From Rhodopirellula sp. (GTDB lineage Bacteria; Planctomycetota; Planctomycetia; Pirellulales; Pirellulaceae), in NCBI GenBank assembly GCA_002690925.1, contig NZGD01000103.1, positions 1 to 64,000 on the forward strand: a DNA stretch of 64,000 nt, in the 5' to 3' direction. The position numbers and the translations under genes were made by a program. Shown piece by piece: positions 25,774 through 30,746 of this stretch; position 1 is the first letter of the stretch; each line of letters opens with the position of its first letter. The notes beneath the pieces were generated by a model. That model did no database searches. It saw only the letters and a program-made list of their open reading frames with translations, and was not told the origin of the DNA.

Positions 25774-26391
25774 TCAGAGAACAAATCCGCCGGTTGTCAA
25801 ACAGAATGCCAGTAGCATGCACAGCCAAACAATATCAAGGAAATGCCAGTACTGGGCGGCGAAATCAACTGGCCAATGGCGTTCGTGGTCATAACGACCC
25901 AACCATGACCGGACAGACACCAATGTCAATGCAACGACTCCCCCCGCTACATGAGCCGCGTGCAGCAACGCCAAAACAACCACCATTCCCACAACCCCTT
26001 TACCAGTGCCTCCGTCCAAAGCAGGTCCGGCCAACATTTCACCCATCGCGTTGAATTGAAGCCCCATAAAAATGACGGCAGTCAGACCGCTCACAAGCAG
26101 TAACACGCTGGTGGTCAAACGCCTTTCCCGGCGAATGGCTCGCGTCGCGGCGTGGACAAGCACGCTGATCACCAACAAACAGGCAGTACTGATCAAAAAC
26201 ATTGATGGCAAAGGAGCCGCCGACTCGGGATCACCCCGGCGGGAATAGGCGTAGATCCCGTAGAGCAAAATACTACTTAGAAAGAAGATAAGCAAAGAAA
26301 CTAGGAACAGCGTACCACCAAGATGGTGCTGCTTATCGCTTGGCAAAATCGCCTTTGGTTTTTGAAGTCGCGAAGTCATGGAAAAAATCAT
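25774..26391 (-). CDS. heme-copper oxidase subunit III (cytochrome c oxidase subunit III family)
   Basis: 205 residues with five membrane spans, the length of short bacterial subunit III. Family signatures visible: FMGLQFNAM in the middle, LLHAAHVAGGVVAL, and the C-terminal DFAAQYWHFLDIVWLCML, which is the hallmark HFxD segment. The ATG at 26389-26391 is used; a second ATG at 26377-26379 is possible. Subunit III assists proton uptake and stability of cytochrome oxidase in the inner membrane. It is isolated: no subunit I, II or heme-maturation genes are seen, the neighbours being a tRNA and phosphofructokinase. It may serve an oxidase encoded elsewhere or be part of an alternative complex III-linked cluster that has dispersed. 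Confidence 0.85.
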   Translation of the reverse strand: MIFSMTSRLQKPKAILPSDKQHHLGGTLFLVSLLIFFLSSILLYGIYAYSRRGDPESAAPLPSMFLISTACLLVISVLVHAATRAIRRERRLTTSVLLLVSGLTAVIFMGLQFNAMGEMLAGPALDGGTGKGVVGMVVVLALLHAAHVAGGVVALTLVSVRSWLGRYDHERHWPVDFAAQYWHFLDIVWLCMLLAFCLTTGGFVL

Positions 26392-28063: not shown

Positions 28064-29920
28064 ATGGAGGTGAAAAAACCTATCACCGTGCGCCGTCCTC
28101 AGAGATGGCGTAAACCGATGGATGCATTGATGGACGATGCAGATGTCCTATGGCTGCGCTCTCGTGAGCCATTTGCCAGCATGGACGCCAAATCTTTTCC
28201 TCCCTCGATCCCACTGGAAGGTATCCTACGAAACGACTGTCGGATCAAACGCTGCGAGCCAGGCGAAATCATTGCTCGAGAGGGCGATTACGGCAACAGT
28301 GCTTTTTTGGTCATCGCTGGCTGCATTAACGCGATGATCGACTCGCTGACGCCCAGACAACTGGGACGAACCAGCCCCAAGAAACTCTCATGGTTTCAGG
28401 CAACTCGCCAATATCTCCGTCGCTCAGGAGTGACCGAGGCACGCTCGCCCGAGGAGGTAACGACGACCACCACCGGGTCAGAATCTTCCGGCAGTTCGAT
28501 CCGTCAGATCGACGATCGCCCCGCGATTTTCCTGCAGGATTTCAATGCCGTCCTGAGAGATCGATCGAGTGTGGAACTGGGGCCAGGCGAACTATTCGGT
28601 GAAGTTGCAGCTATGTACCGATCCCCACGTACGGCCACCGTGATCGCCACCACCGAAGCAACCCTGCTGGAGATCCGTTGGCAGGGGCTTCACGCCCTGA
28701 GGCGAGACAAGCGTTTTGCAACCAGTCTGGAAGAACATTATCGCACACATTGGCTCAATGTTCATCTGAGTGAAGTTCCGTTGCTGCGTGACCTACCGGA
28801 GGCGAGCTTACAGCGAGTCGCTAAAGCGACCCAACTGCGTTCCTTTGGGCGCTTGGAGTGGAACGCCGACTACAACCACACACGCACCCTCCCTGTTGCC
28901 CAGCAAATGGATGCGGAACAAATAGTTTGTGAAGCAGGTCGTGTTCCTACCGAATTGGTGATTGTACGCAACGGGTTTGGCAGACTGTCCCAGCAAGATG
29001 GTGCTGAACACCGCACCACAGCTTATCTCGGGAAGGGTCAAATCTTCGGCTTGGAGGAATTGTCCTACAACACTTTACGACCACCCAACACTCCCCTGGT
29101 GAGTTTACAGAACACACTACGAGCGGTTGGGCTTCTCGATACTTTATTCGTACCAGTAGAGATCTTTGCAACTGATATTTTACCCCATGCACGTCGAACA
29201 GAGTTATCCGAAAAGGCAGCCAGACTATTACTACAGCCAGTAGAACAGCGAACAGCAACGGCTTTAGATCGACTACCGAGTACGCGGAAACAAAGTACGG
29301 TCAACGTAGAAAACATCAATGCAGAAAACACTGAAACCGAGAGTAAAACGGAACCTGAGAATAAACGGAGCAAACAGGTCCAACCAACTGCATTATTGGA
29401 CTTCGTTGTTCAAAGTCGCCTGAACAATGGACGCCAAGCCATGGTAATCGACCTTCATCGCTGCACTCGCTGCGATGATTGCGTCAAGGCCTGTAGCAAT
29501 GCACATGATGGCAATCCCCGATTTGTCCGGCAGGGTTTTTCCCATGACCGATTGCAGGTTGTCGAAGCATGCATGCAGTGCAGTGATCCTGTTTGCATGA
29601 TAGGGTGCCCCACGGGATCCATCACGCGAGACGGAGCAGGAGTGGTCCAGATCCATGAAGCCATTTGCGTAGGCTGTGGCACATGCGCCGCCGCCTGCCC
29701 TTATCAAAACATTCAAATGAAAGAGGTATTTGATCACCACGGCCGTGCCTACAGGGACGCGACTACGAATTTGCCAATTGTAAAGGCAACCAAATGCGAC
29801 ATGTGCAGCAAACTTCCATCCGGACCTGCATGCGTTGCAGCCTGCCCTCACGACGCTCTTGTCCGAATTGATCTAAGTGAGTCCAAATCACTCGAAGAGT
29901 GGCTCGACCTACGGAACTAG
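28064..29920 (+). CDS. cyclic-nucleotide-binding / four-cluster ferredoxin fusion protein
   Basis: 618 residues. The N-terminal part holds a cyclic-nucleotide-binding beta-roll (EPGEIIAREGDYGNSAFLVIAG; after an insertion of about 85 residues, GPGELFGEVAAMYRSPRTATVIA, which retains the FGE...RTAT phosphate-binding cassette). A second, more diverged roll follows (about 255-400, GKGQIFGLEELSYN). After a Glu/Lys/Asn linker (about 405-435) the C-terminus is a DmsB/HybA-type ferredoxin with four cysteine groups: C467-x2-C-x2-C-x3-C, then near 504, 536 and 578, sixteen cysteines, enough for four 4Fe-4S clusters. No signal peptide, so it is cytoplasmic. The next gene, 4 bases on, encodes a bis-His membrane cytochrome, suggesting an electron-transfer complex gated or tuned by a cyclic nucleotide (inference). 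Confidence 0.85.
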   Translation: MEVKKPITVRRPQRWRKPMDALMDDADVLWLRSREPFASMDAKSFPPSIPLEGILRNDCRIKRCEPGEIIAREGDYGNSAFLVIAGCINAMIDSLTPRQLGRTSPKKLSWFQATRQYLRRSGVTEARSPEEVTTTTTGSESSGSSIRQIDDRPAIFLQDFNAVLRDRSSVELGPGELFGEVAAMYRSPRTATVIATTEATLLEIRWQGLHALRRDKRFATSLEEHYRTHWLNVHLSEVPLLRDLPEASLQRVAKATQLRSFGRLEWNADYNHTRTLPVAQQMDAEQIVCEAGRVPTELVIVRNGFGRLSQQDGAEHRTTAYLGKGQIFGLEELSYNTLRPPNTPLVSLQNTLRAVGLLDTLFVPVEIFATDILPHARRTELSEKAARLLLQPVEQRTATALDRLPSTRKQSTVNVENINAENTETESKTEPENKRSKQVQPTALLDFVVQSRLNNGRQAMVIDLHRCTRCDDCVKACSNAHDGNPRFVRQGFSHDRLQVVEACMQCSDPVCMIGCPTGSITRDGAGVVQIHEAICVGCGTCAAACPYQNIQMKEVFDHHGRAYRDATTNLPIVKATKCDMCSKLPSGPACVAACPHDALVRIDLSESKSLEEWLDLRN

Positions 29921-29924
29921 ATGC

Positions 29925-30746
29925 ATGCCAGTTTTTTCATTTCGCCAACGTCGCTGCATCGCCATCACACTGACGTTGATTGCGATCTTTGCAATGTTTG
30001 GCATTGCTCGGATCCAAACGGGTCGATTGGCAGACGTCGCCGTGTTGACCGGTGGAACACTTCTTTGCTGCATTCTTCTGCTGGCATTGTTTGGCATGCG
30101 TCGTCGCATACCGATTCTGCCGTTGGGAAGCATGAGCACATGGACCCAAGTGCATATCTACATGGGATTCTTCACGGCCGGTGTCTATTGGATGCATGTG
30201 CCCCATCTGATCGGGAGTGGCATTTTCGAGCGAGTGCTGTCAATGATTTTCTTGCTTGTTACCGGCAGCGGTTTCTATGGACTGTACGCTTCTCGCACCT
30301 TGCCAAAGCAGCTAACTGCTGTCGAGGGAAAACACCGCTTTGACCGAGTCAAGTGGCATCGCCGGGAAATTGCAGATCATGCAAGAAAGCTGCTTGAAGA
30401 CCGCAGTGTGCATGTCGGCATGCCGGTTCTCGGTAGTTTTTACACGCAACATCTGAACCCCTTTTTCAATTCACGTCCTTCCCTGGCCTACATGCTGATG
30501 CCGACCAGCGGACGACGACGCAAATTGTTAAGTGACCTGAAGGACCTAGAACCTCATCTCGAAAACGAGGTGAGAAAAACAAGTGAAAGATTCGCTGCAT
30601 TGATAAGACGTCGAGACGATTTGGATTACCTATTCGCTTTGCAGCTGCGGTTGCGACTGTGGGTTGCTTTTCACAGTATTTTGACATTGGCATTGGTCAC
30701 AGGTGGACTTATCCACAGTTTCTTAGCCTTCCGTTTGGCGGGATAG
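29925..30746 (+). CDS. membrane b-type cytochrome, partner of the cNMP-ferredoxin protein
   Basis: 273 residues from the ATG at 29925; the start lies 4 bases after the upstream stop. Hydrophobic spans occur near 12-32, 38-56, 75-95 and 100-125, then a soluble loop of about 110 residues, then a C-terminal span. Two histidine pairs with identical 14-residue spacing, H77/H91 and H250/H264, sit inside predicted helices, the arrangement used to hold two b hemes stacked across the membrane. The loop is Arg/Lys/Glu-rich. No known family name was recognised; it recalls ferric-reductase/cytochrome b561-like cores. It probably passes electrons between the ferredoxin clusters and the quinone pool or a periplasmic acceptor (inference). 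Confidence 0.72.
   Translation: MPVFSFRQRRCIAITLTLIAIFAMFGIARIQTGRLADVAVLTGGTLLCCILLLALFGMRRRIPILPLGSMSTWTQVHIYMGFFTAGVYWMHVPHLIGSGIFERVLSMIFLLVTGSGFYGLYASRTLPKQLTAVEGKHRFDRVKWHRREIADHARKLLEDRSVHVGMPVLGSFYTQHLNPFFNSRPSLAYMLMPTSGRRRKLLSDLKDLEPHLENEVRKTSERFAALIRRRDDLDYLFALQLRLRLWVAFHSILTLALVTGGLIHSFLAFRLAG

Follow-up and report, generated by a model that had tools for sequence, protein, structure and literature searches.

What would a cyclic-nucleotide-binding (CNB) domain do inside an electron carrier? The question is raised by two adjoining genes of a 64,000-nucleotide stretch of Rhodopirellula sp. DNA (contig NZGD01000103.1, positions 1 to 64,000; hereafter the window), the first encoding two CNB rolls fused to a four-cluster ferredoxin (CNB-ferredoxin) and the second encoding a four-histidine membrane protein. 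We consider it rather probable that the pair forms the cytoplasmic and the membrane-embedded part of a conduit carrying electrons across the membrane, that a decaheme cytochrome c, periplasmic and anchored in the membrane, is normally its third subunit, that the CNB rolls gate the conduit, and that the window pair is a constrained remnant. The composition of the pair, its conservation, its gene order, and a decaheme-gene remnant beside it are established by sequence:

28064..29920, + strand: open reading frame (ORF) of the CNB-ferredoxin, 618 amino acids (Pfam, PDB sequence matches, structure model and Foldseek, conservation)
28595..28639, + strand: phosphate-binding cassette (PBC) FGEVAAMYRSPRTAT of CNB roll 1, residues 178-192
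29462..29845, + strand: 16 Cys of four putative [4Fe-4S] clusters, residues 467-594
29925..30746, + strand: candidate diheme b-type membrane cytochrome, 273 amino acids from ATG, about five membrane helices
30850..30943, + strand: remnant of a decaheme cytochrome c gene, membrane-anchor region (nucleotide alignment to the related locus L054)

The CNB-ferredoxin comprises roll 1 (residues ~50-230, with an inserted stretch), roll 2 (~245-390; bounds by eye), a low-confidence linker (~394-455), and the four-cluster ferredoxin (~460-600). A Pfam scan matches cNMP_binding (PF00027, 7.2e-21) over three stretches and several Fer4 dicluster models, and a profile of 21 relatives, searched against solved structures, matches PKG and PKA chains and HydN-like ferredoxins. 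The structure model has a mean predicted local distance difference test (pLDDT) value of 62.8, with the ferredoxin part mostly below 60. A Foldseek search with the model gives a best E of 6.6e-15 and template modeling scores (TM-scores) by target of 0.13-0.44; since the best 50 matches listed are mainly tandem-CNB PKA and PKG chains, the two rolls are taken as correct, their relative placement being poorly modelled. The composition claimed in an earlier, sequence-only reading, with a CNB roll keeping the FGE/RTAT cassette, a diverged second roll, and 16 Cys in one polypeptide, is thus found as stated by Pfam, alignment, and model.

The residues expected to contact a ligand and to bind clusters are strongly conserved. 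Specifically, PBC residues G179 and E180 of roll 1 are present in 75/75 and R189 in 71/75 (His in the other four) of a protein set that includes the window protein and extends from close relatives to proteins whose N-terminal part is different; the family keeps a canonical PBC, in support of the sequence-only reading. Roll 2 is diverged: the position of its PBC Glu is Leu in the window protein and Glu in 21/75. All 16 ferredoxin columns (quartets 467/470/473/477, 503/506/511/515, 535/538/541/545, and 578/581/590/594) are Cys in the 74 of 74 proteins with letters there, a count favoured at some columns because the proteins were picked partly by a CxxCxxC pattern. These motifs suggest that the CNB rolls would bind a cyclic nucleotide and that the ferredoxin would carry four [4Fe-4S] clusters. 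The Thr or Ser following the PBC Arg does not settle cyclic AMP (cAMP) versus cyclic GMP (cGMP). In the β2-β3 loop, G74 and D75 are invariant in 21 proteins and G77 varies; a Gly of this loop, which may correspond to G74 or to G77, co-evolved with the PBC Arg in CNB domains, according to the part of PMC2246266 used here.

The ferredoxin part shares the 16-Cys pattern of the HydN, DsrO, and DmsB four-cluster ferredoxins, its best NCBIfam matches (7.5e-18, 1e-16, and 1.2e-12, respectively). However, it lies far below their curated cut-offs and reaches no named equivalog cut-off (HydN 64.7 versus 260 bits, DsrO 61.1 versus 200, DmsB 48.1 versus 214.1, NrfC 48.4 versus 377.6); it also differs in having a CNB N-terminus and no catalytic Mo subunit in 29 scans of ~20 cluster proteins, which covered part of the genes of part of the loci. 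A DmsB-like link to a catalytic molybdoenzyme was dropped as the default, none having appeared among the cluster proteins scanned.

The membrane-cytochrome gene begins 4 bases past the TAG of the CNB-ferredoxin gene, and its product carries H77 and H91 on one helix and H250 and H264 on another, with a spacing of 14 residues in both, as first noted in the sequence-only reading. The four His at this spacing are kept in 89 of 93 membrane-protein sequences, the window included (three of the others are without letters at the second His pair, and in one the first His is replaced by Gln), and are invariant in a 12-row alignment that extends down to 17% identity. The model (pLDDT 72) has helices at 72-91 and 214-272. 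Known two-heme b cytochromes include b561, the gamma subunits of formate dehydrogenases and hydrogenases, and CbcL-like proteins; the likeness lies in two His on each of two helices, the 14-residue spacing, and weak Pfam matches of some family members, and the differences lie in the missing Pfam or NCBIfam match of the window protein, a loop of ~120 residues before the last helix, and a decaheme c partner. In particular, 23 family members gave weak matches to DUF4405 (8), Ferric_reduct (5), and Ni_hydr_CYTB (2), with a best E of 3.4e-4, which we take to be two-heme b cytochrome families. By analogy with the known proteins, two stacked b hemes may be accommodated in the window protein. Residues 58-71 and 126-244 form K/R-rich stretches; because positively charged loops lie on the cytoplasmic side by the positive-inside rule, both would be cytoplasmic, placing H77/H250 toward the inner face and H91/H264 toward the outer face. 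A profile of the membrane family, searched against solved structures, gave three matches, to an enzyme and to two c-Fos chains, with E values of 0.083-0.88, which were set aside as chance.

The pair is widespread and, in relatives, usually has a third partner. Among the 40 genomes searched, the membrane protein is present in 19, comprising the window's own genome, 15 of 21 others of the same genus, and three more distant ones; in the genus, its gene lies 3′ of the CNB-ferredoxin gene (loci L057 and L070 end with their contigs inside the CNB-ferredoxin gene, and the gene is split in L058 and L064). A membrane-protein profile matches 92 of 392 Planctomycetota genomes, own genome counted, and the neighbourhoods of 92 loci were surveyed with six-frame profiles within 7 kb of the membrane protein. 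A single-ORF CNB-ferredoxin lies near 76/92, so the pairing expected from the window is conserved. A c cytochrome with at least six CXXCH motifs, mostly 10, lies near 83/92, and the pair is not the free-standing system that it had seemed to be. NuoEF lies near 6/92 and a homologue of an FAD/[2Fe-2S] reductase near 21/92. The earlier statement that no catalytic oxidoreductase subunit lies nearby is accordingly true of the decayed copy in the window only, relatives mostly having a multiheme cytochrome and some an NADH or NAD(P)H-flavin module. The only loci without any ORF of at least four CXXCH are L053, L055, L057, and L070, all close kin of the window.

In same-genus loci, the usual third gene encodes a protein of ~690-740 amino acids with 10 CXXCH and one membrane anchor, and it lies 3′ of the membrane-cytochrome gene in eight loci (the contig of L064 ends within it). 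A decaheme profile matches 16/40 genomes, eight of them with full-length genes in the genus and the others with partial, broken, or more distant ones; against solved structures, the profile gives a single weak match, to a putative multiheme cytochrome c (E 5.8e-4). The decaheme has, in L054 (11492-13657) and relatives, a Cys-containing segment before the anchor, presumably cytoplasmic, that could bind metal.

The window retains a trace of this gene directly downstream of the pair, which the sequence-only reading missed. Specifically, 94 bases match the part of the L054 decaheme gene around the anchor, with an alignment score of 29 (maximum of 15 in 200 shuffles), and the whole 284-base spacer from the membrane-cytochrome gene to the next gene aligns with the L053 spacer. 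The call rests on nucleotide alignments: tblastn with two decaheme proteins gave no piece in the window at E 1, the decaheme profile gave no match in the window genome or in G006, G008, and G009, and one decaheme protein, used as query against the own genome, gave no match. By tblastn, decaheme pieces are short in L053, L055, L057, and L070, and larger but broken in L058 and L065. Since the window and L053 both carry the remnant, the loss is probably older than their split; the membrane-protein tree does not fix the sequence of decaheme losses within the clade. Decaying copies (L058, L065) indicate repeated loss inside one genus, and in L065 a decaheme gene with several stops adjoins open partner genes.

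These data are consistent with a path in which a cytosolic donor, which in some relatives could be the NADH-FMN NuoEF module or the NAD(P)H-FAD-[2Fe-2S] reductase of the same cluster, would feed electrons into the four [4Fe-4S] clusters of the CNB-ferredoxin. The CNB-ferredoxin would dock on the long loop of the membrane cytochrome; electrons would cross the membrane through two b hemes, the inner held by H77/H250 and the outer by H91/H264, and would exit to the periplasmic multiheme c cytochrome. By sensing a cyclic nucleotide, the CNB rolls would control docking or flow. In the window lineage, where the decaheme is lost, the pair, if active, would deliver its electrons to a different acceptor in the periplasm. 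Gene content in relatives gives the order of the path, from NAD(P)H module through Fe-S clusters and b hemes to decaheme; the heme and cluster loading, the donor, the direction, cyclic-nucleotide binding, and gating we infer. An inward flow, from periplasmic or extracellular donors such as Fe(II) to NAD(P)+ or ferredoxin, would use an identical parts list, reversible operation being known for multiheme c cytochromes and for NuoEF or flavin modules. Nothing in the data is decisive for either direction, and we regard inward flow as quite unlikely.

Control of the proposed outward conduit by a cyclic nucleotide is suggested by the PBC and by neighbouring cyclases. Class III cyclases lie near 12 of the 92 loci, in six families, with 7 of the 12 from one family; a rough calculation by hand puts the chance expectation at ~1 match among 92 such 14-kb stretches, with the caveat that related genomes are not independent samples. 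L163 has, at a distance of one gene, a divergent neighbour with FHA and class III cyclase domains; in L136, a cyclase lies nearby and no CNB-ferredoxin lies within 7 kb. In genus g27, seven genomes with the membrane cytochrome have two cyclase matches each and two genomes without it have one (G423 was counted negative since it is not among the membrane-profile matches). Genomes having cyclases mostly show 1-8 in a phylum-wide search, whose counts are lower bounds because it gives 0 for the window genome despite a known match there. That match, L196 (G000:C238:67206-69029), is the only class III cyclase match of the window genome, is unlinked to the pair, and is homologous over its full length to the FHA-cyclase of L163 (34.5% identity over 608 amino acids). 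Cyclase presence was also considered as a marker of the pair and is not specific, homologues occurring with or without it.

Our broader proposal, which we put forward tentatively and at slightly less than even confidence, is that of a widespread conduit family, in Planctomycetota and also in Opitutales and Rhodospirillaceae metagenome-assembled genomes (MAGs), in which the subunit that carries the electrons doubles as a receptor for cyclic nucleotides. Under this proposal, a second messenger, its cyclase sometimes adjoining, would directly open or close the route by which electrons from NAD(P)H reach multiheme cytochromes in the periplasm or outside the cell. If true, respiratory or extracellular electron transfer would be under post-translational cAMP/cGMP control through a receptor in the wire, not through transcription; Planctomycetota would gain a cyclic-nucleotide effector in energy metabolism; and a membrane-cytochrome family whose window member lacks a Pfam or NCBIfam match would be named. 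The idea can be tested directly in named isolates that carry all three genes, among them Rubripirellula obstinata (L097), Stieleria tagensis (L090), and Rhodopirellula sp. SM50 (L093).

Several observations weigh against a gated, functioning conduit. The window membrane protein has no Pfam match below 0.01 and no NCBIfam match, a fold search with its model gave 0 matches to solved folds at E ≤ 0.001 (best 0.42), and the weak Pfam matches of its family are no stronger than a chance-like OprB match in 2 of the 23 members. About 10 of the 92 loci have the membrane and multiheme cytochromes and no CNB-ferredoxin within 7 kb (L136, L144, L149, L154, L189-L191, and L193-L195, L154 being cut by a contig end on that side); the two proteins, mostly found together, thus do occur apart, and the CNB part is a usual but not obligatory partner. 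An L196-type cyclase is present in 36/40 genomes versus 19/40 for the membrane cytochrome (own genome in both), indicating that the cyclase is not tied to the pair in the window's group. Finally, omega of the pair is raised ~5-6-fold in the comparison of the window with L053 relative to that of L054 with L056, versus 1.3-1.8-fold for four flanking genes, and in the sister copy L058, beside part of a decaheme gene, both genes are broken, that of the membrane cytochrome by a stop and that of the CNB-ferredoxin by a split, so the window pair may be on its way out.

One question is whether the CNB rolls sense a cyclic nucleotide. They could instead serve for structure or docking, or respond to some other ligand, with no cyclic-nucleotide control. 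In favour of this are the loss of roll 2 PBC residues in many members and the ~10 loci where the cytochrome lacks a CNB partner; other ligands are known for CNB domains (PMC2246266, in the part used here), and a trypanosomatid PKA CNB binds nucleosides (PMC10959531, likewise in part). The near-invariant Gly, Glu, and Arg of roll 1 across very divergent lineages and the cyclases near 12 loci argue the other way, and we judge this reading unlikely.

Another question is whether the window pair works at all. By NG86, omega for the window versus L053, both without the decaheme, is 0.161 for the CNB-ferredoxin and 0.177 for the membrane protein, and for L054 versus L056, which keep the decaheme, 0.030 and 0.029; the ratios are rough, with dS of ~0.5 in the first pair and 1.3-2.2 (near 2) in the second. 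The flanking genes give, in the same order, 0.044 and 0.026 (phosphofructokinase-like), 0.047 and 0.036 (RibBA-like), 0.051 and 0.037 (COX3-like), and 0.147 and 0.083 (GATase). These values indicate a pair that is relaxed yet not neutral. If the pair were a non-functional leftover of the three-gene complex, with intact reading frames just because decay set in recently, this would account for the reduction of the decaheme gene to a remnant, the damage in L058, and an omega of 0.16-0.18. However, both ORFs are open across 891 codons with His, Cys, and PBC residues retained, omega is well below 1 at a dS of ~0.5 between two lineages sharing the decaheme loss, and L055 likewise has both genes open with just a decaheme piece. 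We think it doubtful that the pair is non-functional in this sense. With the decaheme gene lost in its lineage, the window pair appears to be a stripped-down, relaxed but still constrained copy of a widespread electron-transfer machine.

The system proposed here would be a variation on known electron conduits across membranes, one that has a CNB receptor built in. Like PKA R, PKG, and other CNB-effector fusions, the CNB-ferredoxin has tandem rolls and a canonical PBC (FGE...PR[TS]AT); unlike them, its effector is a four-cluster ferredoxin in an electron-transfer operon. Its closest likeness as a sensor fused to a redox protein is the Bact_Pyrredox class, a bacterial tandem CNB fused to a pyridine nucleotide-disulphide oxidoreductase (PMC2246266, in the part used here); the words "ferredoxin" and "4Fe-4S" are absent from the main text of that paper. 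Porin-cytochrome clusters (PMC13264449, PMC5615132, and PMC10732223, each in part) are reported also from Planctomycetota, some with ferredoxin-NADP reductase genes (PMC13264449). They share with L188-type loci the combination of multiheme cytochromes, outer-membrane barrel candidates, and flavin reductases, but the parts of these papers used here mention no CNB-ferredoxin, and the comparison is by description. The phrase "cyclic nucleotide" is absent from PMC10732223 and PMC13264449. Such clusters are defined by an outer-membrane porin and a periplasmic multiheme cytochrome; the window locus has no multiheme gene left. Among the matches listed in open-licence PMC papers, none names a CNB-ferredoxin with a multiheme cytochrome, which does not show absence from print.

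Neighbourhoods of the pair vary across its range, which includes named Rhodopirellula, Rubripirellula, Stieleria, Neorhodopirellula, and Roseimaritima species and MAGs. The richest clusters, such as L188, encode a 5-heme cytochrome, a possible outer-membrane barrel (460 amino acids, by eye with a signal peptide and a C-terminal Phe; no Pfam match), an NAD-FAD-[2Fe-2S] reductase, a 4-heme cytochrome, the CNB-ferredoxin, the membrane cytochrome, and the decaheme. In L071 (771-9242), L072, L073, L076, and L077, an NADH-type sister cluster consists of membrane cytochrome, 10-heme, 4-heme, NuoE-NuoF fusion, and an 836-841 amino-acid protein with Fe-S motifs, two CNB rolls, and ferredoxin; the extra N-terminal Fe-S motifs of this CNB-ferredoxin are NuoG/HoxU-like in L071, the one scanned. 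Such a cluster looks like an NADH:multiheme cytochrome c oxidoreductase.

The CNB-ferredoxin of L162 (8786-10816) begins with an FHA domain, and in L159 (4299-5912), which looks similar by eye, an FHA domain is fused to the FAD/2Fe-2S reductase; these fusions suggest that docking along this electron path has a further, phospho-dependent layer. Homologous three-gene loci are present in Opitutales/Opitutus and Rhodospirillaceae MAGs (L102-L105, membrane protein 26-28% identical), so the module is not confined to Planctomycetota. Upstream of the pair in the window, a COX3-like membrane protein (25774-26391, - strand; PF00510, 1.4e-6) is encoded beside the phosphofructokinase-like gene, an order retained in several loci of the genus.

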